Below are positions 7,647-64,000 of a DNA stretch of 64,000 nucleotides, one piece after another (position 1 is the first letter of the stretch; every line of letters begins with the position of its first letter). The translations under genes and the position numbers were made by a program. The notes beneath the pieces are model-generated. The model did not search any database, was not told where the DNA came from, and saw only the letters and a list, made by a program, of their open reading frames with translations. Source of the DNA: a virus; the IMG/VR virus record IMGVR_UViG_3300047310_000412, positions 19,953 through 83,952 of that record. One strand, 5' to 3'.

Positions 7647-7659
7647 GGAAATTGTTTCC
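7647..7659 (+). promoter_or_regulatory. Shared leader hairpin, copy 1
   Basis: GGAAA-TTG-TTTCC lies just after the expected transcription start. Compared with the other three copies only the loop differs (TTG for TCG), while both arms are kept. The Shine-Dalgarno GGGAG follows about 10 bases later. Confidence 0.65.
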
Positions 7660-7681
7660 GTTGCCAACAAGGGAGCCAGTC

Positions 7682-9010
7682 ATGGCTATGAATTGGCCAC
7701 GGTGGATCAAGCGGGAATGGGCGCGGTGCGCCCTGGAGGCCGAGCTTTCGGGCGCGACCCTGCGGATCACGCCGTCCCCGCTTCGGGACCCGCTCTATAG
7801 CGACATCGACGCGGTATGGGCTTTCTACGTGTCGCGGGCGCGGGACGCCGGCCGGCAGGTGGAAATTGAACTGAACCCCTCCGACAGCGCTGCCTACAAC
7901 ATGGCGCGGGTCGTCTGGCTGGCTGGCGAATTGGCCAGCGACAGTCCGGTGATCAGCGGCTGGCGGTTGTCTTCGACACGGCGGCGGGCCTTCGACCGGT
8001 ACAATTTCACATTGGTTCCGCTGGGGCGGACCGTGGGCTTGTCGGTGCGGGTGTCGCGGGCGGTTCACGGCGACGCGGCCTGGAACATCGTCCGGTCGAA
8101 ATGGCTGGAGGCCCAGGTCGGGCATCTGGTGCTGAGCGGCGCATCGAGCGCGGCAGCGGCTCCTCGGACGCCAGCGGAAGCAGCGGTGACCGGGACAGTC
8201 GGACCGGCGGTGGTGCTGGATTGGACCAATCTCACCTACGGGATCGAGATTGAATGCATCCGGCCCAGCAACGTGTCGATGGCCGAGTTCGCCCGGCAAC
8301 TGACCGAGGCCGGTGTGCCGACCAACGCCGAGCACTACAACCATCACGTCCGGAACTACTGGAAGATCGTGACCGATGGTTCACTGAGCGACCGGAACGG
8401 CGTGGGCATGGAATTGGTCAGCCCCATCCTGCGGGGCACGGCCGATTTCGAGATGGTGCGGAAGGCCGCTGCGGTCCTCCACGGCGACGGGCCACGGGCG
8501 CTCTGCCGGATCAACAAGACGTGCGGTCTCCACGTTCACGTTGGTCTGCCTCGGCGGGAACACACACTGCCGATCAACGTGCTGCGGCTCTACCATCACT
8601 ACGAGAACGTGATTGACGGCTTGATGCCGCCGTCACGGCGGGGCACGGCCAACAGCTACTGCCGGCCGACCACGTTCACGCCTCGGATGGCGGGCGCGAC
8701 CACGCTCGAAACGCTGCGGTCGAGCTACGGCTACGACAGATACCGGAAGGTAAATCTGGAGTCGATCTGGCGGCACGGCACGGTCGAGTTCCGGCAGCAT
8801 GCCGGGACGATCGAGGCCGACAAAATCATCTCTTGGGCCACATTGGTTCTCAAGATGATGGCAATCGCCAACAGCGCACCGCCGCTGCCTGAGGGGCCAG
8901 CCACGCTGGAAGGCCTCCTGGCCCTGACCGGCGCTGACGAGGCCGCGACATCCTTCTGGATGCAGCGGCAGAGCCAGATGGCTCCAGCCAGCATGGCGGC
9001 AGCAGCCTAG
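7682..9010 (+). CDS. Amidoligase family enzyme
   Basis: The 442-residue protein starts MAMNWPRW after GGGAG. The C-terminal half carries hallmarks of the putative amidoligase family (glutamine-synthetase-like fold, ATP-dependent COOH-NH2 ligases): GIEIE (about 187-191), VTDGSL and GMELVSPIL (about 230-250), CGLHVHVG (about 280-287) and GTVEFRQHAGT (about 364-374). The N-terminal 170 residues are a separate, variable domain. Family members are thought to form amide or isopeptide bonds on peptides, wall precursors or small metabolites. A gamma-glutamylcyclotransferase-like gene at 11622 shares its promoter and leader type, suggesting a common pathway. Substrate unknown. Confidence 0.85.
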   Translation: MAMNWPRWIKREWARCALEAELSGATLRITPSPLRDPLYSDIDAVWAFYVSRARDAGRQVEIELNPSDSAAYNMARVVWLAGELASDSPVISGWRLSSTRRRAFDRYNFTLVPLGRTVGLSVRVSRAVHGDAAWNIVRSKWLEAQVGHLVLSGASSAAAAPRTPAEAAVTGTVGPAVVLDWTNLTYGIEIECIRPSNVSMAEFARQLTEAGVPTNAEHYNHHVRNYWKIVTDGSLSDRNGVGMELVSPILRGTADFEMVRKAAAVLHGDGPRALCRINKTCGLHVHVGLPRREHTLPINVLRLYHHYENVIDGLMPPSRRGTANSYCRPTTFTPRMAGATTLETLRSSYGYDRYRKVNLESIWRHGTVEFRQHAGTIEADKIISWATLVLKMMAIANSAPPLPEGPATLEGLLALTGADEAATSFWMQRQSQMAPASMAAAA

Positions 9011-47669: not shown

Positions 47670-48598
47670 CAGAATGCCGAGGAGCCTTGGGGGCCGCCGA
47701 GGATGATCCCCTTGCTGTCGAGATTACCCTTACCGCCGTCTTCCATAGCACCGGAGTCATCTCTGTCAGCTTGTCGCTGCACCGCATCCCCGGCAGTTGA
47801 ATTGGCCGTGTTATCGCCGCTGACAGTGTTATCGCCGGTCGGCAATGGCGTCGTCGGTTTATCCCCCTGAGGCTTATCGGGCGTGGTCCCACCGTCCTTA
47901 TGAGCATTCGGATCATCGGACGCGGTTTTTGACACCGATGTCGTTGAAGTTTTGACAATGATCACTTGCCGGCAACCGATCTGCGCCATTAGCGCAAATT
48001 CGCTATGCTGATCGGTCGTCACGATCAGCCGCTCGATCAGCATGTTGGGATACGTCCGCTTGCCGGTGACCAGATCGAACGGCAGGAACGATGCCTGAAG
48101 TGCCAGCAGCAGTCCGTATATTCCGGTCTCGGCCGACAGATCATAGGCCCAAGCGGTTGACCAGCCCGCATTGATATTGACCGATATCGGGCGTTTGAAC
48201 GCGTGATCCGATATCGGAGCGCCCTGTTCAATGGGGTGATCGGTTATCTGTACTTCATCTGTATGCTGCACTTCGATGGTAACCTGAGCCATAATGCCGC
48301 CGATCGATCGGCGACGCGGCAAGATCAGCGCCGGCATAAAGCCACCGGCTGATATCGAGAGACCGACACCACCAATGCCGATGCGACCACTAAGACCAAA
48401 GCCACCGGGGCCGAGGCCGCCGCTGATGCCGATATTGGCACCACCGATGCCGACACCGCCGCTGATGCCAATGCCACCTGGGCCGACACGCACACCGACA
48501 CCACCGCCGCCGCCAAAGTTGACACCGCCGCTGATACCAAAGTTGACACCGCCGCTGATACCAAAGCCGGGGCCGCCGCCTGGAGGAACTGCTGCCAT
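47669..48598 (-). CDS. Dit-like baseplate protein with glycine-rich N-terminus
   Basis: The 309-residue protein has an unusual first 85 residues made of Gly-rich repeats (GISGGVNFGISGGVNFG). From about 100 onward, VTIEVQHTDEVQITDHP, GAPISDHAFKRPISVNI and TYPNMLIERLIVTTDQHS match the Dit-like domain of contractile-tail phages, which links tube and baseplate hub. The C-terminal 80 residues are Asp/Thr/Asn-rich. The MAQVTIEV methionine may be a second start that would produce the standard length. Confidence 0.75.
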   Translation of the reverse strand: MAAVPPGGGPGFGISGGVNFGISGGVNFGGGGGVGVRVGPGGIGISGGVGIGGANIGISGGLGPGGFGLSGRIGIGGVGLSISAGGFMPALILPRRRSIGGIMAQVTIEVQHTDEVQITDHPIEQGAPISDHAFKRPISVNINAGWSTAWAYDLSAETGIYGLLLALQASFLPFDLVTGKRTYPNMLIERLIVTTDQHSEFALMAQIGCRQVIIVKTSTTSVSKTASDDPNAHKDGGTTPDKPQGDKPTTPLPTGDNTVSGDNTANSTAGDAVQRQADRDDSGAMEDGGKGNLDSKGIILGGPQGSSAF

Positions 48599-48612: not shown

Positions 48613-49971
48613 TCATTTCGCGGTAACTGCCCTTGACGCAGCACGCCTGAATACTGAACCGGATGTCGTTTGATCGACCTTGCCGTTGGCGTCAGTGGCA
48701 AGACAGATCATGTCGCAGTACCAGGGATGGCCGCGCGTATCGCCGGTAATTTCCAACATCATGACTTTGTAGAGACCAGTCTTTGACACAATTTCCGGAA
48801 TTGAAGCCCCTGCCGCAATCCCAGCGGGGCCGCTCGCGCCCTTGGCGTTTCTGAACCCTGCGCCTTCAGCACCAGTCATTTGCGTGTCTTGTGTACCGGG
48901 AATATAGGGAATGCCCGAAATGAGTTCGGCATCGAGCTTTATCTTGCCGCCGATTTGTATCTTGGGATTGAGCAGGCAGCGACACTGAAGGCCCTGCGGT
49001 GTCAATTCGGGGATGCCAACCAGCCCGGTCTTCGGACTGAGGACGACAGCATCACCGGGCCGATATCCAGCCTGCTCAACGATAAAGAGCTTGCCGTTGT
49101 CGGCGTAAACATTCCCACCGTACTTCTGCATTATCTCGCGGAGATACTGCATGGTCGGACCGGCCAGCGTCAGCGGGCGTTGCAGCTTTTCGGTCCCGAT
49201 CTTGTCGCTGACATATCCCGCCGGAAGTTTGGTGTCCTTCACCAGATGCTGAACGACATCGCTTTCCTTGGTGCCGATTTCAAAGCGCTTGAAGGTAAAA
49301 GCCCCCGCCGTACTATCTTCGTCACCGGCAAGGATTTCGAGATAAGTATCGGTCGGGCTTTCACGTGCGCGCCGGTATTGCACGACGGTCCCGTCAAAGA
49401 TGATGCCAAAATCGCCGTACCAGTAGCCCGCGCTAAGCTGGACACGGGTAAACAGATTGATCTTCTGCATCGTTGCCGGGGAGAGATTGTAGACTTTAGC
49501 ATCGAGCAAATTGGGCGACGAGTTCGTCGCCTTGTTGACGTTAAACTCGACACGCAGCGCACCAAGCTCGATCCCCCCGCTGGCACTACCGGAACTACCG
49601 GAACTACCGGAACTACCGGAACTACCGGAACTCGAACTTCCGCTGCTGCCGCTGCTGTCCCGTGCTGCCGCGCGTGAGAAAGGGACCACCGAGGCTCCAC
49701 CGATCCCGATCGTGCCGGGGCCAGCGTTGGCCTGTGTGCTGGGCGTGGTGGTGCTTTTGGCGGCGGATGTTGTGGGCGTTGTGCCGGCGGGTTTATAGAC
49801 AACCAGACTGATCCGCCGCATCCACTGCGAATTATTGGGATTTTTGGTGTCGCCTTTGGCACTGCCCTCTTTGAAGCCGCCCGAATAGGGGCCGCTCGAC
49901 GGCTGTATCTGGTTGGCGAGGCTGTGCCACGCCTCCGCTTCGGCTGTGGGTGTGAGCCAGTCAGGCATCAT
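48613..49971 (-). CDS. Baseplate hub protein (gpD/gp27-like)
   Basis: The 452-residue protein starts MMPDWLTPTAEAEAWHS; its first ATG overlaps the stop of the second tape-measure gene. Residues 60-150 are Thr/Ser/Gly-rich, with a short GSSGSSGSS run. Residues 155-400 (LEILAGDEDSTAGAFTF, RFEIGTKESDVVQHLV, REIMQKYGGNVYADNGKLF) match the phage hub fold of the gpD/gp27 type. The hub sits at the end of the tail tube and carries the spike. The low-complexity insertion is unusual. Confidence 0.75.
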   Translation of the reverse strand: MMPDWLTPTAEAEAWHSLANQIQPSSGPYSGGFKEGSAKGDTKNPNNSQWMRRISLVVYKPAGTTPTTSAAKSTTTPSTQANAGPGTIGIGGASVVPFSRAAARDSSGSSGSSSSGSSGSSGSSGSSGSASGGIELGALRVEFNVNKATNSSPNLLDAKVYNLSPATMQKINLFTRVQLSAGYWYGDFGIIFDGTVVQYRRARESPTDTYLEILAGDEDSTAGAFTFKRFEIGTKESDVVQHLVKDTKLPAGYVSDKIGTEKLQRPLTLAGPTMQYLREIMQKYGGNVYADNGKLFIVEQAGYRPGDAVVLSPKTGLVGIPELTPQGLQCRCLLNPKIQIGGKIKLDAELISGIPYIPGTQDTQMTGAEGAGFRNAKGASGPAGIAAGASIPEIVSKTGLYKVMMLEITGDTRGHPWYCDMICLATDANGKVDQTTSGSVFRRAASRAVTAK

Positions 49972-52835
49972 GCCACCGGGGTCCGGCCGGCCCACCGCAT
50001 AGTCAGGGGCCAATCACGATCATAGATTGCTGTCTTCTGTTTGCTTGTCGGCGTCCTGCCTTCATTGCCGGCGACGTGGACATGCGTGTCATTCTTCACC
50101 ACGACATGCTGCTGCGATTTGTTGCCCCAGATGCGACTGGCAGCATCAGCCCCCCACGTCGCTGACGACACCTGTTGCCCTGCCCGCTTAATTTGCTCGA
50201 TCGTCTTGTGGTAATCATCGGGATGGACGACGCCGCCACGACGCTGCGTCCCCTCCAGTTCGCCGGTAAAGCCGTAGTGAAATTCTTTGGCCATTGTACC
50301 GAGTTGCGCGTTGATCTTCGCTGCATCCTTGACACCGGCACCAACGCCCACAAGGACGACGTTCGCTCCAACATCGTGCAGTTCCTGCACCGTCTTTTTG
50401 ACGGCCTCCATCTGAGATGGATCAAAGCCCGCATTGGGATTGCTGCCGCTAGCCAGCGCGATCGACTTACCGGCGTAATCTTTTATGTGCGCGTGGATGC
50501 GCTCATAAATCTGCTTTGGCGTGGTGCCGCCAACCGCATCGGCAAATTTGCCTGCACCCCCATGTAAGCCCAATACTGTATCGACACCATCCGCAATCGA
50601 GTCTCCGATCGCCACCATGAGCGAACCAAAACCGGTGCCCGTGCTGGGCGCGGCGGCAGCACCGGGAGCGGGAGCGGTGGGCGGTACATCCGGCGTAATC
50701 CCGGCATTGGCCCGCTGATAGGTCTGTTCCACTTCCGACATCGGTTGCGATTGCGAACCGTGCCAAGTGCCGCGAATGCTTGCTCTGGCAGCACCAACAT
50801 CGGTGCTTTTACCGTAGGCCCCGTGGGTTATTTCATTCGCACGCTTCATAAAATAGCGCGTCTGCGCCGCAACATCCTTTGTCGGTTCTTTCACTCCGTT
50901 TTCTTTTGCCCACTTCAAATAGCCCGGTAGCTCGCCGCCAGCGAAGAATTGGTACGGCCCAAAGCTCGCCTCTCCTTTGATGCCCGATGGTGCCCATGAT
51001 TGGGTCCAGCCACCCTCGCCCAAGCCAACCGCTAGCGTGGCTTTGATGGCGGCTTCGGTCCAACCGGCCTTACGCATCTCGTTGACGGCGACTGCGGCAA
51101 AGTTCCCCTTGTCGTTGATCGCACCGCTCGGCCCGGTCAACGTAGTGTCGGGACCGCTGCTGCCGCCTGGACCGCCTGGACCGCCTGGGCCGCCTGGAGC
51201 ATTCCTGGGCGGCCTGCCACTGCCGGGACCGATCCCGGCGTCATGTAGCGCATCCTTAAACGAGTCCTTCCACCGGTCTACGGTATCGTCACCAAGTTCC
51301 AATTGCGGTTTGTAGGACGTGTCACCGGCAAACCATGAGACAAACTGATCGAGCAGCCGGCGCGACGTATCAAATAATCCGCCGCTGCCACCCGAGAAGA
51401 AGGATTGCAGCCCTTGGCTGATAGCGGTGGGCAGCACCATCTCGCCCGCGTGGGCATTGATCGGCACGATACCGCCGTGCTGGAAGCCCAGCCGCTTCAT
51501 ACGGGCATTATAGGCGCGCTCGTAGCGCTCGTAGGCGGCAGAACCCGGTTGCCCATTCTGGAGGCGCTGGAGCGGCTGTATCCGGCTTCCCGGCCCGACC
51601 TTACCGTAGTCCTCCTTGAGCTTCTGCCATATCCCCCCTAGCCAGTTCAGGGGATCGCCAACCGTATGCTTCCTGGGCGGTCCCAACGGCTGCGGCGTGG
51701 GTTGCCCAGACGGCGCTATGGGCGGGAGCTTTTCTTCTCCCTCCTTGGCCCCGGTGAACCCCCGGTTGATCCACTTCCGGAAGTCGTCGAATTTCTCCTT
51801 GCGCACTTTCTGCTGCTCTGGCGTCAGGAATTTGTCAGGGAGAAAGAGCACCGCAGCGGAGAGCGCCGTCAGCGGGCCGAGCACCCCTAAGACAGAAGCC
51901 CGCCATTGGCCAAAGAAGCCCAGCATTGCCAGGGCTTTGCTACCCACCCAGATGAGCAGAAATGCTTCAACAATAGGTCCGAGATGATCCAGCGATTTCT
52001 CGATCGTGGGCATCATCGTCATCAAGCGCTCGAACATCGCAGTGAATTGTTTTTGCGTCTCGGGATTGATCAGCCATTGCTGAAATGCGTCTGCTATCTT
52101 GACAATGGTCCCGAGAAGAGAATTGCCTTTATCATCCTTTTTGGTAAGAAGTTCGAGAAAGGCAATGTTCAGCGTCTTGCCAAGCAGTTCTAATTCTCGA
52201 TTGGCCTTGGCAGAGGCGGCAGCGGCCTCTTCCGGCGTAGTCTTCAGCTTCTTCCAAGACTCATCGATTTCATTGGCAAATTTAAGGGATGCAGCCTTCT
52301 GAAGTTCAAGCTGACGAATTTGTTCTTTTGTCTGATCGTTTGTAGCAGTCGATAATTCGTACAGGAATTTCTGTACGGACTCCGATTGCCAATCACCGCC
52401 TGCTGCATTGACGATCGCTTCGAGCTTGTCCCGTGCCTTCTCCATAAACACGGTGACATTACCGCCGAAATCACCAACAAGATTGGCGGCATTCGACATT
52501 CGACCGGGTATGGTCTGAAATTCCATACCCAAGCTATTGATCGTTCCCTGCGCTTGCGCGGCGCTCATCCCAGCGCCGATAAAGAGATTACCCAGCCGAT
52601 CAATCGCAGAGGCCGTCGTGCCGCTGGATTTCGCGAGATAATCGAGAGGCGCGTAAGCGTTGGTGGTCCGCCGCACCATCTCCTCGATGCCGACGATCGC
52701 GGCCAGAGCCGCAATCCGGACACCATTCAGCCCCTGGACGCCCTGCTGGATGCCCTGCTGGAATTTCCGCGACGAGACTTCATCAACGGCATAAGTCAGC
52801 CGGATGACAAAGCTCTGGAGGACGCTCTCAGCCAT
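49968..52835 (-). CDS. Tape-measure protein 2 with lysozyme-type and SGNH-hydrolase domains
   Basis: The 955-residue protein starts MAESVLQSFVIRLTYAV. Residues 1-110 (GLNGVRIAALAAIVGIEEM, VRRTTNAYAPLDYL) and GIVPINAHAGEMVLPTAIS near 455 are shared with the next gene's product. About 585-700 is a tail-lysozyme-like domain (AVGLGEGGWTQSW, ASFGPYQFFAGG). About 735-895 is an SGNH/GDSL-type domain (VAIGDSIADG, later VHPDDYH), suggesting an esterase acting on surface polymers. It sets tail length and may help cross the wall. It is one of two tandem paralogues. Confidence 0.8.
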   Translation of the reverse strand: MAESVLQSFVIRLTYAVDEVSSRKFQQGIQQGVQGLNGVRIAALAAIVGIEEMVRRTTNAYAPLDYLAKSSGTTASAIDRLGNLFIGAGMSAAQAQGTINSLGMEFQTIPGRMSNAANLVGDFGGNVTVFMEKARDKLEAIVNAAGGDWQSESVQKFLYELSTATNDQTKEQIRQLELQKAASLKFANEIDESWKKLKTTPEEAAAASAKANRELELLGKTLNIAFLELLTKKDDKGNSLLGTIVKIADAFQQWLINPETQKQFTAMFERLMTMMPTIEKSLDHLGPIVEAFLLIWVGSKALAMLGFFGQWRASVLGVLGPLTALSAAVLFLPDKFLTPEQQKVRKEKFDDFRKWINRGFTGAKEGEEKLPPIAPSGQPTPQPLGPPRKHTVGDPLNWLGGIWQKLKEDYGKVGPGSRIQPLQRLQNGQPGSAAYERYERAYNARMKRLGFQHGGIVPINAHAGEMVLPTAISQGLQSFFSGGSGGLFDTSRRLLDQFVSWFAGDTSYKPQLELGDDTVDRWKDSFKDALHDAGIGPGSGRPPRNAPGGPGGPGGPGGSSGPDTTLTGPSGAINDKGNFAAVAVNEMRKAGWTEAAIKATLAVGLGEGGWTQSWAPSGIKGEASFGPYQFFAGGELPGYLKWAKENGVKEPTKDVAAQTRYFMKRANEITHGAYGKSTDVGAARASIRGTWHGSQSQPMSEVEQTYQRANAGITPDVPPTAPAPGAAAAPSTGTGFGSLMVAIGDSIADGVDTVLGLHGGAGKFADAVGGTTPKQIYERIHAHIKDYAGKSIALASGSNPNAGFDPSQMEAVKKTVQELHDVGANVVLVGVGAGVKDAAKINAQLGTMAKEFHYGFTGELEGTQRRGGVVHPDDYHKTIEQIKRAGQQVSSATWGADAASRIWGNKSQQHVVVKNDTHVHVAGNEGRTPTSKQKTAIYDRDWPLTMRWAGRTPVA

Positions 52836-55390
52836 TAGGCAACCTTCCGCGTCAAATCACTGACAAAGCGTGAATTAGCCGAGTTCTGCGCCGTCTGCAC
52901 CGCCGTAGCAGTGGCAGTGGGGCTATCGTTACCGTGGACGTAAATATGCTGCTCGTGTCGCGCATCGACGCGGACAGTGCGCGTGGAGTGTGCGCCCAAC
53001 GGCGTTGAGACGTGCATAGTAGCCGCGTGAGTGACGGCGCGTGCGGCAGCGACGCGGAAACCGTCTGCGTGCGTCTTGGCTGTGGCGGCAATCTTGGCAA
53101 CAGTGGTAGCGAGCGTCCTGCCGGCATCCGATTGCTTACCGCCTTGGGCGGCTTTTTCCTTCTCGCTGTATTCATGCCATTTTTTAAGTTCGCTAGGAGA
53201 GAGAACTCCTGGCGGATAAGACTTTCCGCCCTCAACCAATTCCTTATCGCGATCGGGGACGCCGTGCGATGGGTCAGGCACAAACGCGTCAGCAACAGCT
53301 TTGACGCTCTCAGCAGCCGCTTTGGTAACGGTTGCAGTAACCTTGGCAACGGCAGGCTTGACAACTTCGGCTGACGGTGCAGCCGGTGCCGGCTTTGCTT
53401 CCGCTGCGGCCTTGCGACGGCGAATGGCCTCGCGCGCCAGTTCAGCATCGCGCACTTCAAAATGCCCGGTGTCCTTGCGGTTGTGAAATAGGTCGCCTGG
53501 GTAAAGCCCCCAGGATTTCGCAAGCTCGTTTTCCTCTACCACCGGCAGCGTTTTTCCGCCTCCGCGTATCCCGTAACCGATCTGGTTGACATCGATCGCA
53601 CGACCCAAGGGATGGTAGCTGGCATTGCCGGGACGCTCTCCGACACCACCATGCGCCGGTCCTATGACACCGCCGCGCTTCTCGTATTCATCGATGAAGC
53701 CCTTGAAGTTTTCGGCAAATTCGGAAGCAACTTCAAATTTGGCACCTGACGTGGAAGTAACGACCGTCGTGTTCTTGTGTGACGCTGGTGTTCCGGCGGG
53801 AGCCATCGGGTCCATGTGACCTGGACTACCGGCCGGGCCGCCGGTACTAGGCCCGCTAGGGCCGCTAGGCCGGTCACCGCTACTACCGGCATCGTCACCA
53901 CCGCGCGCGATATTAACGTCCCTTAATACTTCCAGCATCGCGTCTTGCATGTGGTCCAGGGTATCTTCGCCCAGTTCCGCTTGCGGCTTATAAGAATTGT
54001 CACCGGTAAACCACGCGACAAAGCTGTCGAGCATCCGACGCGATGTACTGAATAAGCCGCCCGAACCGCCCGAGAAGAAGCCTTGCAATCCGCTGCTGAT
54101 AGCAGTGGGGAGGACCATCTCGCCGGCATGCGCGTTGATCGGCACAATGCCGCCTTTTGCAAAGCCAAGCTCGCCGCTATCGGGCGGCTTGACCAACGCA
54201 TTGGGGTCCAGCCCCATCTTCCAGAAGCCGTGCTTTTGATAGAGCCGCCATAGCTCCCAAACCGACGCCCCGAGACCAACGATGCCAGCACCAAGCGTGA
54301 GGCCGCCTATCACCGCGCCACCACCGCCTGCTGCGCCCCCTGCCGCCCCGCCCGCTGCCCCGCCTGCCGCAGCACCGCCTGCCGCCCCGCCTGCCGCAGC
54401 ACCGCCCGCTGCCCCGCCTGCCGCAGCACCAGCACACAGTCCACTGAAGACGCTGGCCAAGCCTCTGAAGAACATTAAGATACCAAGAGCCTTATCGGTG
54501 GCCCAGAGAGTAATCATTCCTATCATAATCTTGTCGATATGAGTTATCGACCATTCGATAGCCGGCAGCAGCACCATGATCTTGTCGAAAATCCCGGTGA
54601 ACTGCTTCTGCGTATCGTCATCAATCAGCCACGTCCGTAATTTATCCGCTATCTCAGTAATATAATCGAGAAGGGACTTGCCATTAACTTCCTTTGTCAG
54701 CAATTCGGTAAAAGCGATCTGTAACGTCTTGCCGACAAGTTCGAACGCTAGACTAGCTTTGCGGGCCTCTGCCGCTGCCTTTGCTACATCGACACCGGTG
54801 TCCTTATAAATCTTGTCAACTTTTTGGGCGAAATCGCTGGCTTCCTGCCAATTGAGATGCAATTGGCGGATTTGCTCCGTCGCCTTGGCACCAACTACCT
54901 CGGTAAGATTATTGACATAGGCCAGCACGTTATAGTTTTGCGTGTCGCCATGAGCCGCCGCTAAAACAGCGGTGTACTTCTCAGTGGCCTTCACCATAAA
55001 ATCGTTGACGCCGTCGAACTTCTGGTTGATCGCGGCTTCTGCCGCTTTCTGCTTGGTGGGGACCGTTACAAATTCCGTCCCCAATTCATTGACGGTCGCC
55101 TTTGCTGCCTCGGCGCTCATCCCAGCGCCGACAAAGAGGCTGGATAAATGCTCGATCGCGGCGGCCGACGTACCGGAAGAGCGACTGAGAATATCGAGGC
55201 TGGCGTAGACGTTTGTCGTGCGCCTGACCATTTCCTCGATGCCGACAACCGCCGCCAGCGCGGCGATGCGGATCGTGTTTAGCCCCTCAATACTCTGCTT
55301 GATCCCCGCGCCGAACCGCTTGATCGCTACATCATCGACCGCATAGTTGAGCTTGATGATGAAGCTCTGGAGGACGTTTGCATCAGCCAC
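52835..55390 (-). CDS. Tape-measure protein 1 with M15-type peptidase domain
   Basis: The 851-residue protein uses a GTG start overlapping the preceding stop. Residues 1-110 (NTIRIAALAAVVGIEEMVR, VGAGMSAEAAKATVNELG) are clearly homologous to tape-measure protein 2. A run of AAAGGAAGGA-type repeats lies near 320-355. GIVPINAHAGEMVLPTAIS is shared. About 555-650 resemble a D-Ala-D-Ala carboxypeptidase-type M15 metallopeptidase (SYHPLGRAIDVNQ, HxxxxxxxD, and TGHFE). The C-terminus is rich in Ala/Lys. It determines tail length and probably opens peptidoglycan. Confidence 0.8.
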   Translation of the reverse strand: MADANVLQSFIIKLNYAVDDVAIKRFGAGIKQSIEGLNTIRIAALAAVVGIEEMVRRTTNVYASLDILSRSSGTSAAAIEHLSSLFVGAGMSAEAAKATVNELGTEFVTVPTKQKAAEAAINQKFDGVNDFMVKATEKYTAVLAAAHGDTQNYNVLAYVNNLTEVVGAKATEQIRQLHLNWQEASDFAQKVDKIYKDTGVDVAKAAAEARKASLAFELVGKTLQIAFTELLTKEVNGKSLLDYITEIADKLRTWLIDDDTQKQFTGIFDKIMVLLPAIEWSITHIDKIMIGMITLWATDKALGILMFFRGLASVFSGLCAGAAAGGAAGGAAAGGAAGGAAAGGAAGGAAGGAAGGGGAVIGGLTLGAGIVGLGASVWELWRLYQKHGFWKMGLDPNALVKPPDSGELGFAKGGIVPINAHAGEMVLPTAISSGLQGFFSGGSGGLFSTSRRMLDSFVAWFTGDNSYKPQAELGEDTLDHMQDAMLEVLRDVNIARGGDDAGSSGDRPSGPSGPSTGGPAGSPGHMDPMAPAGTPASHKNTTVVTSTSGAKFEVASEFAENFKGFIDEYEKRGGVIGPAHGGVGERPGNASYHPLGRAIDVNQIGYGIRGGGKTLPVVEENELAKSWGLYPGDLFHNRKDTGHFEVRDAELAREAIRRRKAAAEAKPAPAAPSAEVVKPAVAKVTATVTKAAAESVKAVADAFVPDPSHGVPDRDKELVEGGKSYPPGVLSPSELKKWHEYSEKEKAAQGGKQSDAGRTLATTVAKIAATAKTHADGFRVAAARAVTHAATMHVSTPLGAHSTRTVRVDARHEQHIYVHGNDSPTATATAVQTAQNSANSRFVSDLTRKVA

Positions 55391-55562
55391 GGTATGCGTC
55401 CTCCTGCGCCTCGTGGACGCGGGCTTGGTTCTCGTCGCGGATTTCCATAGCCTCGTTCATGCGTGCGACATCCAAGAGACCAAGTGTCCCGTCGATCAAA
55501 CTCTCGTAGTGACACATGCCTTCTAGGACCGGGCGCATCACCCAGTCCTCTTCCTCGTTCAT
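55383..55562 (-). CDS. Small tail-assembly protein (DUF6889-like)
   Basis: A 59-residue minus-strand frame lies between the chaperone and tape-measure genes. Its ATG overlaps the chaperone stop (ATGA) and its stop overlaps the tape-measure GTG. The product, MNEEEDWVMRPVLEGMC, then YESLIDGTLGLLDVARMNEA, matches the short DUF6889 pattern seen directly upstream of tape-measure genes. It probably replaces the frameshift product of other tail-assembly chaperone pairs. Confidence 0.75.
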   Translation of the reverse strand: MNEEEDWVMRPVLEGMCHYESLIDGTLGLLDVARMNEAMEIRDENQARVHEAQEDAYRG

Positions 55563-55996
55563 TGCAACGAAGGTAATGCTTCCTGTGAAGCCTCTCCCCC
55601 CAAACCGTTTGTTTGGGGTGCGGGAAAAAAAGCGCCGAGATTGTCCTGTATCGTCGCAAAGGCAAGCTGAAGCATCGCCTGCAAATCCATGTCCTCGAAC
55701 ATAAAATCGCCTTGCGGCGTCATCACCGGCACCCAGTTGCGGCCGTTAAACGTCGCGCATGTCCCGAGGCACGTCTTGATGATCCATTCGCTGTCCTCGA
55801 CCGACATATCGGAAATCGCCTGTGCCACCGGGCCAAGCGAGTTCCAGAACGTAGCGTCACCGCTGGGCGAGAAGGTAGACGTTGTCTCGCCCAGCCCGCT
55901 GAACAGGGGCAAGAGCTTGCGCACCAGATGAAACTGCTTAAACGCGTCCAGTTTTCCCGTGCGATATTTTCGCACGCCGATATCAAGCTCTTGCAT
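55559..55996 (-). CDS. Tail assembly chaperone
   Basis: The 145-residue protein starts MQELDIGVRKYRTGKLD. KLDAFKQFHLVRKLLPLFSG and MSVEDSEWIIKTCLGTC match the tail-assembly chaperone pattern of contractile phages. It lies between the tube gene and the tape-measure gene, where these chaperones occur, and coats the tape-measure protein during tail assembly. The stop overlaps the next start by 4 bases. Confidence 0.7.
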   Translation of the reverse strand: MQELDIGVRKYRTGKLDAFKQFHLVRKLLPLFSGLGETTSTFSPSGDATFWNSLGPVAQAISDMSVEDSEWIIKTCLGTCATFNGRNWVPVMTPQGDFMFEDMDLQAMLQLAFATIQDNLGAFFPAPQTNGLGGEASQEALPSLQ

Positions 55997-56023: not shown

Positions 56024-56491
56024 TTAAGCGACGACGGCGACGTTGACCTGTAATCCCTGGCCCAGATCAAAATCGACAATGCCGGCGTGGAACACCCAGG
56101 ACATCTCGGCGGCGTCCTTGCTGTAGGTAACATCGGCGAACTTGCCGAACGCCACCTGTTGCGCGGTGATCACGTCGTTGCGCTGGAGATCGCGGATCGA
56201 GATGACGTTCTGCCCGTGGACACCGGAGAACTCGGTGTCGCCCTTATACATCATCGACAGCACGCGGTTCATCGGGCTGGTCTTCAAGAGGCGAATGGTG
56301 ATGTTCGCCCCCTTGCCTGCGTGCAGATTGTGCATGACACAACCATCCGCGCCGATCACCATCGTTGACTTGTCCTCGACCATAGTGATCGTCAGACCGC
56401 CTTCGGTCGCGCACGATCCGGCACCGACATTGGCGATCCCATTGGGACCGGTGATGCTCGCCATGATGTCTTGAAACGAGTACGTAGCCAT
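56024..56491 (-). CDS. Tail tube protein (DUF3277)
   Basis: The 155-residue protein starts MATYSFQDIMASITGPN after AAAGGAGTGGG. MVEDKSTMVIGADGCVMHN, KTSPMNRVLSMMYKGDTEF and NVISIRDLQRNDVITAQQ match the DUF3277 tube family of KPP10-type myoviruses. It forms the inner tube of the contractile tail. The gene follows the sheath as usual. Confidence 0.85.
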   Translation of the reverse strand: MATYSFQDIMASITGPNGIANVGAGSCATEGGLTITMVEDKSTMVIGADGCVMHNLHAGKGANITIRLLKTSPMNRVLSMMYKGDTEFSGVHGQNVISIRDLQRNDVITAQQVAFGKFADVTYSKDAAEMSWVFHAGIVDFDLGQGLQVNVAVVA

Positions 56492-56514: not shown

Positions 56515-57999
56515 TTAGCGGTTAACATTGATCAAAACATTGGCGAAGTGAATGGCACCGGCCAGCTTCACCGCGATCTGGATCAGCGGAGCGATACGCG
56601 CTTCGCGATCGGACTGGGCCTGGGTCTCGACCAGATTGGCAAACGTGTACCAGCCGCGTGCCAGAAGATCGCCCTGGATCAATTCACCAAAACCCGGTGC
56701 GTTCCAGATACCCGGCGCGATCAAGCCGTTGTTGACGCCTTGGGCAAGCCCGCCATCGGCGGCATTGACCAGTGTGTGGACACCGGGATTGGTCTGCGGG
56801 ACTTTAGGCTGCGTGTAGAGCGTGTTCCAGACATCGTTCTGCACGCGGTTGCTGAGCCAGTCGAGACCGTGCATTTCATCAAAGTATGCACGCCCGGACA
56901 TCACGCCTTCTTGGTTGATCGACGTGCCGTTGTTGTAGATGACGTAGACGTTGCAGCGCTTCGACGCGATGGTCGATGCTTGCGCCCCGGTGAGCAATTC
57001 GGGGACGACCCCAGGCTCGACTTTGAACTTCATGGTGATCGTGGTGTTTATGCCTTCGAAGTTCGTAGTGAGCGCGCGACCAAAGAAACTGCAAATCGCG
57101 AAGGCGTTGTTGATCGAATACTGGATCACCGTCCGCGTGTAGTCGGCCAGCATCAACTGGCTGGCCAAATCGAGCGACGACGACGGATCGAGGATCGTCG
57201 CTTCGGCTGTGGTGATGCCATAGAGATGCTTATCGGTCGCCGCCTCCAGATAGCCCGAGCAGGCTATGTGCTGGGCGTCGGTCAGCGGGACGGAGGCAGC
57301 AAATGTCGCCGCGTACCAGCCGCGCCCATCGACGCGCGCCAGCGCTGCCACGGGCGTTTCGGGCGCGAGACCGGTGGACGAGCGCTCGGCCAGCGCCATC
57401 GTCATGTGCAGCTTCGCCGAAAGATCGGTGCCGCTGGTCGGCGCGGTGAGGAACGAGACCGCCGATTGCGGGCCGGTGGTGCCGCTGCCCAACAGAAACT
57501 GCTGCCCGTTCCACTGGAACGTCGCATTGGGAGCCAGAAGCTGAAGCGCCGTCTGGATGATACTCGCCACCGCATTGAGATTGGTCGCACCGGCAAAGCT
57601 GAGACCGGCGACATGCGTCGGTGTCGCTGCCCCGTCGAGCGTGACGCTAAAGCCGCCGGCCGTCACCGCGATCCAGGGAGCCATCAACTGCTCCAAGAGA
57701 GGCAACGGACCACCGGTCAGTTGCCCCTTGGTCGCGGTCCTGGCCCACGTGCCGATATAGAGGATCGCTGGTGTCGGAACCTGCGAGAAATACAAATCCG
57801 CCGCATAGTATTCGGGTGCGGTGGTGCCGTAGTCGCCAGCCACGTCATCGATCCGGTTGTACTCGCGGATCGCTTCGCCGCTGTCGATAAATGGCGTGTC
57901 GCCCATGACCAAGAGCGTGTCGAACCGCGTAGCCACGGCGGCCTGCGGGGAAAAGTTGACCTGTACGTCAACGACGCGTGAAACCGATAAGCCTTGCAT
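56515..57999 (-). CDS. Tail sheath protein (DUF3383)
   Basis: The 494-residue protein starts MQGLSVSRVVDVQVNFS. SPQAAVATRFDTLLVMGDT, YNRIDDVAGDYGTTAPEYY and QVPTPAILYIGTWART match the DUF3383 sheath family. It forms the contractile outer sheath; its presence with DUF3277 defines the myovirus type. Length fits the family. Confidence 0.85.
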   Translation of the reverse strand: MQGLSVSRVVDVQVNFSPQAAVATRFDTLLVMGDTPFIDSGEAIREYNRIDDVAGDYGTTAPEYYAADLYFSQVPTPAILYIGTWARTATKGQLTGGPLPLLEQLMAPWIAVTAGGFSVTLDGAATPTHVAGLSFAGATNLNAVASIIQTALQLLAPNATFQWNGQQFLLGSGTTGPQSAVSFLTAPTSGTDLSAKLHMTMALAERSSTGLAPETPVAALARVDGRGWYAATFAASVPLTDAQHIACSGYLEAATDKHLYGITTAEATILDPSSSLDLASQLMLADYTRTVIQYSINNAFAICSFFGRALTTNFEGINTTITMKFKVEPGVVPELLTGAQASTIASKRCNVYVIYNNGTSINQEGVMSGRAYFDEMHGLDWLSNRVQNDVWNTLYTQPKVPQTNPGVHTLVNAADGGLAQGVNNGLIAPGIWNAPGFGELIQGDLLARGWYTFANLVETQAQSDREARIAPLIQIAVKLAGAIHFANVLINVNR

Positions 58000-61053: not shown

Positions 61054-64000
61054 TTAGGCAACCCTCCTCAGCGGGGGCACGGTAATCAAACGCCCTCCGT
61101 TCCCTGTCGTGACCGTGCGAACGGACGGCGACGCCGCTGTGCCGTGGAGCCGGTCATCCCCCGTTGCAACGACAAGGCGATCGGATGGCGGCGGCGTCTC
61201 CAGACGATCGGGCGGCACGTCCGGTATAGTCCCCGGCACCCCCGGTATCCAGACATTGCCGATGCCCCCAGTGGCGACGAGCGTCTGATCGTCTTGCGCC
61301 CGGTCGAGGCCGCCGACAATCCGCAGCACACCAATCGCCTGAAGCGTCTGGTTAGCCTGGGATAGCGCCAGAGCGCCCGTAACCGGCCCCAGGAGAGCCG
61401 TGGCCGCCAGTGTCTGGTTGTCCTGGCTGACGGTGAGCCGCCCCGAAACAACCACCGTAGCGGTCGCTAGAAGCGTCTGTGGAGCCTGGGCAAGACTGGC
61501 CGTGCCGTAGACAACCGGGATGATGACGCCGCTCGCCACAAGCGTCTGATCGGCCTGCGTCCGGTTGAGGCTTCCCGCGAGCGCAACAGTTCCGCTCGCA
61601 GCGACGGTCTGATTGGCCTGAACTTGATTTAGAGTGCCAACAAAGCCGGTGACGGTCCCGGCCGACGCCAGCGTCTGGCTGGCTTGCGTCAGATTGAGAT
61701 TGCCGATGACCCCAGTAAGGATCGTGCCGGTCGCGACAAGCGTCTGTGGAGCTTGATTTAGACTGAGCGCCCCCGTGACGCCCACAGTTCCAACAGCGAC
61801 AGCCGTCTGCGCGGCCTGAGATACCGCCAGAGTGCCAGATACGCGGACCGTACCCGTGGCAGCAACCGCCTGCGCGGCTTGGGCGGCAGCGAGCGACCCG
61901 CTTGCTGTCGCACCGCCGCTCGCAGCGATCGTCTGATTGGCCTGTTGAACACCAAGCGTGCCACTTACAACCGCCCCACCAGACGCCGCGATCGTCTGCG
62001 GCGCTTGGTTAACACCGAGCGTCCCCGAAACGCGCACCGTGCCCGTCGCGGCAATAGTATCGGGCGTTTCGGTAACAGCGAGGATGCCGAGAACGGCAGG
62101 AAGGCTAAGCGGTTGCCAAATAACATCGGCTGAATAGTTGGTATCCGCTACCAGACCGGCCGGATATCCGGCCCCCATGTCGCCGTATCTTCCAATGATC
62201 CACGTTGCGTGGGCGGCATTGGTGACGTTTGGCGCAGAGCCTCCATAACTAAAAATATCGGAAACGTCATAAGAAATTACATAGTTGGAACCTGCCGCAA
62301 CCGGGATCGGAGACGGGAATGCGACCTGCACCCAGCCCGTTCCGGTTTCCGCAACCGATGCGTTCGACGTGGCGACCAGTGTCCCGGCGGCAGTCTCATA
62401 CAGAAACATCGGTCTGGAAGTGATCGTCGATGCAGCGGGTCGATGAAATTGAGCCTTTGTGATCTGCCCCGCGACGACGAAATGAACTTCATTACCGACC
62501 CGATAAGGACCGGGATACGTCAAATCTATGAGGGGCGATGCCTGAACGCTTTCTTCAGGACCATAACCGACACTGCCCGTTGCCGTCAGCGTCTGCGGAG
62601 CCTGGGCGAGGTTGAGGGTGCCGGTAAGGCCGCTGCTGATAACCGCGCCCGTTGCGACGAGCGTCTGGTTTGCCTGGGTAATCCCCAGCGTGCCGCTTAC
62701 AAGGCCCGTGCCGGTCGCCACCAGCGTGTGGTTTGCTTGAGTTCTCGCGAGCGTGCCGGAAACGGTCACACCACCAGTCGCGACAATCGTCTGATTAGCC
62801 TGGGTGGCTGTGAGCGTGCCGCGTACCTGAACGGTGCCTGCGGCGGTGACCGTGTCAGGGCTTTCGGTGACCGATAGTGTGCCGGTAATGGCGACGAGGG
62901 GGGCCGTGCCTGTCGCCGACAGCGTGTCGGCAGTCTCAGTGACCGCTAGAGTGCCAGTTATACCAGTACCAGCGATCTGATACGCCGGTTGCACCGCACC
63001 GGGATGCGTATAGTTGGTAACACCGGTTGTCTGCCCCGCCCTGTGCTGCGGGAAGGCTGGGGGCCAAGCAACAGCTACCAACCCGCTGATCGCTGGCTGC
63101 ACCGCACCCGGTGCGTCAAAGTTTGTTACACCTAAACTTTGCCCTGCGCCGTGTTGCGGGAAGGCTGGGGGCCACGGGGCGACCGCTATCGGAGCCGCAG
63201 GCCCAGTCCCTGTCGCCGCCAGCGTATCTGGTACTTCGCTGCGCGCCAGCGTACCGCCGACGATCGGCCCGCCAGACGCTGCCAACGTATCGGGAGCCTC
63301 AGTCTTTACCAGCGTGCCGACATAGGGAGTTCTGCCGGTCGAGACGATCGTGTCAGAAATCTCAGTAACAGCAACCGTGCCGGTCACGGCGGCAACAAAA
63401 TCAGCGGTGGTGATCGAAGCGGTGCCGATGCGGAAGAAAACGTTGTCGTTGTTACTCGATCCGGCAGTGGTTTCCTGCCACTCTACCTGAAAAAACAGAT
63501 ATGCGTTGTTGAGGACTATCTGTCCTGGCGAGGCGGTAATCGAACTATTTGTGTCGGCGGTAGTTGAGAGCGTGACGGTCGCGCCCGCCGTATTGGCGAT
63601 AAGCTGAGTGGCAACGGCTCCGGTAAGGTTAGTTGACCGGTACATCTTCATGTTGACGTGGCCGATACAACCTGCCGTCCCGGCCCGCATGTTGAAATTG
63701 AAGGTCCAGGCCGTGGCAGCGAAGGTGCCGGTTAACGGCCCAACGACAAAACAATCACCAGCCGTACCGCCACCAGTTCCCGTTCCCACAGTGGGACCGC
63801 TTGTCGAAGCGTTGTAACTGGCGGAAAGAGCGGGATCGGTGCTAGTCGCCGTCGCGCCAAGATGGCCGCGATAATACGGTGTGGTGATCGCAGTTTTGGC
63901 TGGTGCCCAACCAAAGGCCGAATTAGCTGCGGTCGGCGCTGAACCGTTAAGCTGAGTGTTGCCCCAGAAGTATGGGGTAACCGCTGGCGTTCCGAGGAGG
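61054..64000 (-). CDS. Giant repeat-rich structural protein (5' end beyond window)
   Basis: The frame stays open from 61054 to the window edge, so at least 982 residues are encoded and the N-terminus is missing; the GTG at 63789 is not a necessary start. About 22 repeats of about 21 residues share the core GTLxxTQANQTLVATG. Two copies of a WPPAFPQHGAGQSLGVTN-type unit occur near residue 250 of the visible part. A DUF4082-like sugar-binding-type domain (near FVVAGQITKAQFHRP and GWVQVAFPSPIPVAAGSN) interrupts the array. The C-terminus is Arg/Pro-rich. It may be a surface decoration or fibre protein of the virion. Confidence 0.7.
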   Translation of the reverse strand, partial: LLGTPAVTPYFWGNTQLNGSAPTAANSAFGWAPAKTAITTPYYRGHLGATATSTDPALSASYNASTSGPTVGTGTGGGTAGDCFVVGPLTGTFAATAWTFNFNMRAGTAGCIGHVNMKMYRSTNLTGAVATQLIANTAGATVTLSTTADTNSSITASPGQIVLNNAYLFFQVEWQETTAGSSNNDNVFFRIGTASITTADFVAAVTGTVAVTEISDTIVSTGRTPYVGTLVKTEAPDTLAASGGPIVGGTLARSEVPDTLAATGTGPAAPIAVAPWPPAFPQHGAGQSLGVTNFDAPGAVQPAISGLVAVAWPPAFPQHRAGQTTGVTNYTHPGAVQPAYQIAGTGITGTLAVTETADTLSATGTAPLVAITGTLSVTESPDTVTAAGTVQVRGTLTATQANQTIVATGGVTVSGTLARTQANHTLVATGTGLVSGTLGITQANQTLVATGAVISSGLTGTLNLAQAPQTLTATGSVGYGPEESVQASPLIDLTYPGPYRVGNEVHFVVAGQITKAQFHRPAASTITSRPMFLYETAAGTLVATSNASVAETGTGWVQVAFPSPIPVAAGSNYVISYDVSDIFSYGGSAPNVTNAAHATWIIGRYGDMGAGYPAGLVADTNYSADVIWQPLSLPAVLGILAVTETPDTIAATGTVRVSGTLGVNQAPQTIAASGGAVVSGTLGVQQANQTIAASGGATASGSLAAAQAAQAVAATGTVRVSGTLAVSQAAQTAVAVGTVGVTGALSLNQAPQTLVATGTILTGVIGNLNLTQASQTLASAGTVTGFVGTLNQVQANQTVAASGTVALAGSLNRTQADQTLVASGVIIPVVYGTASLAQAPQTLLATATVVVSGRLTVSQDNQTLAATALLGPVTGALALSQANQTLQAIGVLRIVGGLDRAQDDQTLVATGGIGNVWIPGVPGTIPDVPPDRLETPPPSDRLVVATGDDRLHGTAASPSVRTVTTGNGGRLITVPPLRRVA

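Follow-up and report, generated by a model that had tools for sequence, protein, structure and literature searches.

Two paralogous tape-measure proteins with different wall-enzyme heads behind a single chaperone in a phage contractile-tail module

Tape-measure proteins (TMPs) are commonly treated as homo-oligomers, encoded by a single gene for each tail. A viral record of 83,952 bp raises the question of how one contractile tail might use two of them. In the window analysed here (64,000 nucleotides, bases 19,953-83,952 of the record), the tail module runs on the minus strand from the sheath through the tube and a frameshifted chaperone to two consecutive TMP genes, TMP-A and TMP-B, followed by the hub. 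Together, the two genes occupy the exact slot of the single tape-measure gene in contractile-tail modules, with TMP-A lying directly after the chaperone and TMP-B following as the second gene before the hub. TMP-A (52835..55390, minus strand; 851 aa, GTG start) begins 168 nt past the chaperone, a gap of the same length as in the relatives L046-L049. The ATG of TMP-B (49968..52835, minus strand; 955 aa) overlaps the TMP-A stop codon (TAATG), which suggests that the two proteins are made by coupled translation, and the hub gene comes directly next. The original prediction gave the coordinates of the pair (49968-55390; frames 49968-52835 and 52835-55390) and its shared segments correctly.

The remaining tail genes, all on the minus strand, are present in one copy each. 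They comprise the sheath (56515..57999; phrog_205, E=5e-112, with matches annotated as DUF3383), the tail tube protein (56024..56491; phrog_280, virion structural, E=1e-31, and placed after the sheath), the sole tail assembly chaperone (TAC; 55559..55996; phrog_1688, E=2e-28) and its -1 frameshift extension TAC-T (55383..55631), which starts from a slippery TTTTTTT at 55631-55625. A slippery T-run (TTTTTTT, or TTTTTTC in two cases) and a homologous extension are found at the same place in 14 relatives. The baseplate hub (48613..50013; phrog_196, E=5e-63) is given here as a mechanically delimited reading frame, and its true start probably lies downstream of the TMP-B stop. No second sheath, tube, chaperone or hub was found in the 83,952-bp record, and we therefore rejected the idea that the two TMPs serve two separate tails. 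With one copy each of chaperone, tube, sheath and hub, there is one tail machine for TMP-A and TMP-B to share. Elsewhere on the minus strand, the hub contains an SSG repeat (49550-49650), the baseplate protein after it starts with a glycine-rich repeat (GISGGVNFG..., 48300-48598), and a 911-aa protein upstream of the neck genes contains a DUF4082 domain (61054-63789). The largely unassigned plus-strand genes include one of the Amidoligase_2 family (7652-9010, E=5e-31). Outside the window, the same record encodes a single 977-aa polypeptide that joins a uracil-DNA glycosylase-superfamily domain at its N-terminus to a Family A DNA polymerase (L094, 11440-14373, minus strand).

Coming from a single metagenomic record, the pair could in principle be an assembly artefact or a chimera, and an assembly error at the duplication had been named as an outcome that would overturn the original prediction. 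However, two other IMG/VR contigs span the TMP-A/TMP-B junction, one over 12,791 bp at 100% identity (L002, IMGVR_UViG_3300036401_000029) and the other over 8,990 bp at 99.99% with one mismatch (L003, IMGVR_UViG_3300049440_000152), so that the junction is no artefact of assembly. In addition, the two genes are only about 69-78% alike in DNA, where they can be aligned at all. The probability that we assign to an artefact is thus negligible.

BLASTP, TMP-family matches and domain searches bear out that the two proteins are paralogous TMPs with different wall enzymes. Their residues 1-305 are 48% identical (E=2e-82), with 63% identity across the first 110 residues, and the GIVPINAHAGEMVLP block, which holds GGIVPINAHAGEMVLP, reaches 64%. 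The first ~110 residues match the tape-measure family phrog_12506 in both cases (TMP-B, E=4e-6; TMP-A, E=3e-5). The common block as a whole covers residues 1-308 of each protein (54467..55390 in TMP-A and 51912..52835 in TMP-B). Further downstream, the motif GGIVPINAHAGEMVLP, near-invariant in the family (alignment A2), lies at residues 413-428 of TMP-A (54107..54154) and 454-469 of TMP-B (51429..51476). The ruler from N-terminus to motif measures 421 residues in TMP-A and 462 in TMP-B, 41 residues apart and within the family range of 369-584. Hydrophobic segments typical of TMPs (Kyte-Doolittle, 19-residue window, peaks >1.5) are located near residues 301-359 of TMP-A and 285-314 of TMP-B. 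Between those of TMP-A there is a long Gly/Ala repeat (AAAGGAAGG..., 54290-54430, minus strand), which TMP-B lacks, having a different linker there.

The 308 codons common to both genes give a pS of 0.69 and a pN of 0.36, and the frames of 851 and 955 codons are intact despite synonymous sites near saturation; both are under purifying constraint. The end branches of TMP-A and TMP-B (0.40 and 0.57, respectively, against a median of 0.4) make that of TMP-B 1.4 times longer. Given open frames near synonymous saturation and ordinary branch lengths, neither copy looks to be decaying.

The two proteins also differ at their C-terminal ends. In myophage Pa193, the TMP is a trimer that docks to hub and tail tip by its C-termini (PMC11042391). 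The last 45 aa of TMP-A (52838..52972) represent the canonical docking tail of the family, scoring 20-24 bits against the tail HMM, a value reached by none of 2000 shuffled sequences. The corresponding tail of TMP-B (49971..50105) has diverged yet is still recognisable with a clade HMM (9.3 bits, 0/2000 shuffles), whereas the broad HMM does not recognise it (1.8 bits, equalled in 115/2000 shuffles). A frameshifted or truncated TMP-B C-terminus was considered and rejected, because the tail aligns in frame with those of relatives. With a docking tail that is clearly weaker than that of TMP-A (9.3 versus 24 bits), TMP-B may not dock in the normal manner.

Upstream of these tails, each protein carries a different set of putative wall-enzyme heads. 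In TMP-A, residues ~545-665 (53396..53758) match Pfam Peptidase_M15_4 (E=0.0027) and the profile of 2vo9, a phage L-Ala-D-Glu peptidase (E=0.002). The zinc-ligand motifs SYHPLGRAIDV and DTGHFEV align with SNHNYGVAVDL and KDYPHFEL of 2vo9, reproducing the SxHxxGxAxD pattern and the terminal His. TMP-B contains a lysozyme-like head at residues 583-697 (50745..51089; Phage_lysozyme2, E=5e-4), whose score of 20.6 bits is below the gathering score of 28.2, passed by the relative L046 at 41.4, and an SGNH esterase-like domain at residues ~738-892 (50160..50624). The Pfam matches in TMP-A and TMP-B fall short of the curated cut-offs, which the same domains exceed in the relatives L046 and L032. Structure prediction, proposed as a check on the original assignment, yielded a confident model of the SGNH domain (pLDDT mostly 64-87) with the corresponding fold, whose best Foldseek matches are structures of the peptidoglycan O-acetyltransferase OatA (6vjp/6wn9, E=6e-4, TMt 0.61-0.67), followed by the thioesterase TesA and other SGNH folds. 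Neither the M15 nor the lysozyme fold could be confirmed: the model of the M15 head was of low confidence (mean pLDDT 48) and gave no significant Foldseek match to M15 structures, and that of the lysozyme-like head was likewise of low confidence. The sub-cut-off Pfam matches, the 2vo9 profile and the SGNH fold support the assignment of an M15-like head to TMP-A and of lysozyme-like and SGNH-like heads to TMP-B. Of the blocks expected in SGNH hydrolases (GDS serine, Asn and DxxH), the domain has GDS, GSN and VHP; in TMP-B, L014, L046 and L048 alike, Gly stands in place of the Asp usually found three residues before the His.

To place the pair among its relatives, viral contigs were scanned with sheath and TMP profiles, yielding 34 distinct relatives whose loci are complete from chaperone through TMP to hub/baseplate. 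In all 34 there is exactly one TMP gene, which mostly abuts or overlaps the gene that follows; the window alone has two. The survey for further two-TMP phages that had been suggested at the outset thus marks the pair as unusual (0/34). The isolates Magia, vB_BaM-IFTN9, SEN34 and BgManors32, which have homologous sheaths, also contain one TMP each (4/4). The contigs of L004 and L005, the closest relatives by sheath, stop before or inside the first TMP and are silent on whether these two phages also have the pair. Comparison of TMP-A and TMP-B with the records of a phage collection gave no sequence match, cultured or prophage, and a scan of GTDB with one motif pattern found no TMP relative. Among the 31 TMPs scanned for domains (TMP-A and TMP-B included), the heads vary between Phage_lysozyme2, M15_4, Glucosaminidase, Transglycosylas, Phage_lysozyme and VanY. 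The survey shows that C-terminal enzyme heads are exchanged within the group. The M15 head of TMP-A otherwise occurs in L032, L064 and L082. The combination of lysozyme and SGNH domains is probably ancestral, because the single TMPs of L046 and L048 have the same pair. The SGNH domain closest to that of TMP-B (68% identical) is found in L014, a member of a more distant clade; outside this domain the proteins are only remote relatives (L014/L045), which points to domain exchange between TMPs.

How the pair arose can be narrowed down in part. In a tree built from the N-terminal block and the motif block, TMP-A and TMP-B are sisters with a support of 100/100, adjoined by L046, L047 and L048; a capture of the two genes from two different sampled lineages was rejected on these grounds. 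However, sheaths that are 91-96% identical often go along with TMP N-termini that are only 50-62% identical (L032/L034/L050/L058, L009/L014 and L033/L040), the same level as between TMP-A and TMP-B. This pattern suggests that the TMP genes of the group turn over, by fast divergence or by swapping, far faster than the adjacent sheath. Tandem duplication is therefore inseparable from the capture of an allele from a sister phage. Thus, of the duplication originally proposed, the paralogy stands (E=2e-82, sisters 100/100), but a duplication event is not established against the capture of a sister phage's second TMP allele, for which an unsampled sister phage is a possible donor. The pair may accordingly be the outcome of a tandem duplication or of additive capture, and the enzyme head of TMP-A would have been exchanged after or during this event, with TMP-B keeping the head of the nearest single-TMP relatives. 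The same turnover could be taken to mean that we are looking at a recent recombination intermediate, in which a captured allele has yet to resolve and confers no present benefit. Given that the identical junction in three assemblies suggests a stable arrangement, and that overlap and spacing are tidy, we regard this as very improbable.

The other readings concern the way in which the two proteins are used. That both are working TMPs, translated in tandem from one operon and served by one TAC/TAC-T pair and one hub in one kind of contractile tail, has in our estimate an even chance of being correct. The narrower proposal that they form a heteromeric tape measure, with one contractile tail built on a bundle of two paralogues that is handled by one chaperone and loads three wall enzymes, is our favoured explanation, although we hold it tentatively, at somewhat less than even. 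A single chaperone, tube, sheath and hub would suit hetero-assembly best. Less probable, albeit a serious competitor, is the possibility that only one copy, probably TMP-A, is the structural tape and that TMP-B has no role in setting length, being either a relic or a carrier of enzymes that is packaged now and then. It is TMP-A that adjoins the chaperone and has the canonical docking tail, the tail of TMP-B has diverged and its branch is longer, and every relative manages with a single TMP. On the other hand, TMP-B keeps an open frame of 955 codons, an N-terminal block and motif under constraint, the lysozyme and SGNH head of the family and the slot directly before the hub. It is also conceivable, but unlikely, that each tail contains either TMP-A or TMP-B, resulting in two types of particles that differ in their enzymes and slightly in length. 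Each protein indeed has the appearance of a complete TMP with ends of its own, and both rulers fall inside the family range; yet the common chaperone and the coupled translation favour mixing, and neither protein has a chaperone or hub of its own. Tape measures translate into about 0.15 nm of tail length per residue. The 41-residue difference would thus amount to only ~6 nm, which makes two tail lengths, as considered in the original prediction, less likely.

The mixed tape measure that we favour would work as follows. TMP-A and TMP-B would be made together from one operon and be folded, or kept soluble, by the single TAC/TAC-T pair. In both, the N-terminal block of TMPs has been kept along with the GEMVLP motif, a hydrophobic segment and a C-terminal tail, and both should therefore be able to act as ruler subunits. 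They would be loaded as a mixed bundle into the same tail and docked to the single hub, with the TMP-A end providing the canonical dock. Such a bundle must tolerate a mismatch, because the rulers are 41 residues apart and the Gly/Ala stretch of TMP-A faces a different linker in TMP-B. Upon contraction and injection, the lysozyme-like and SGNH (peptidoglycan O-acetyl esterase-like) heads of TMP-B and the M15 peptidase head of TMP-A would be delivered, so that the glycan, the O-acetyl groups on it and the stem peptide would all come under attack and co-loading would add a third wall activity. We infer from the gene pair that both proteins are present in the virion, mixed in one tail, with enzymatically active heads. 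If both do occupy the same tail, a ruler can be a heteromer of two kinds of subunits, and its enzyme payload can grow without lengthening a single protein. The pair may thus show that two different rulers can serve in the assembly of a single tail. With two diverged yet intact TMPs occurring naturally behind the same chaperone, the stoichiometry of TMPs and their mixing become open to experimental tests.

In the open-access full texts, we found no description of a phage with a paralogous TMP pair, and a report in a subscription journal or one that went unnoticed is possible. By contrast, wall enzymes within TMPs are well known, for instance from TM4, phiCbK and Pa193 (PMC3556154, PMC11042391). 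The Pbunavirus TMP gp41 of Pa193 is a myophage TMP that carries a putative transglycosylase domain and docks through its C-terminus, as a trimer, to hub and tail tip (PMC11042391), but it is single and homomeric, whereas the window has two TMPs. Burkholderia phage Magia, Salmonella phage SEN34, BgManors32 and vB_BaM-IFTN9 share a homologous sheath and the order sheath-tube-TAC-TMP with the window; they differ in having one TMP of about 560-730 codons and a hub two genes further downstream. The uncultivated IMG/VR phages L046, L047 and L048, the nearest tree neighbours of the pair, have the same chaperone-TMP-hub order but one TMP gene instead of two, which in L046 and L048 carries the lysozyme-like and SGNH head seen in TMP-B. 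Similarly, the single TMP of L032 and L064 belongs to the same family and has the M15_4 head of TMP-A, in L032 together with a Glucosaminidase domain. These phages keep their wall enzymes within one polypeptide and do without a second TMP, whereas the phage described here splits its heads over two.
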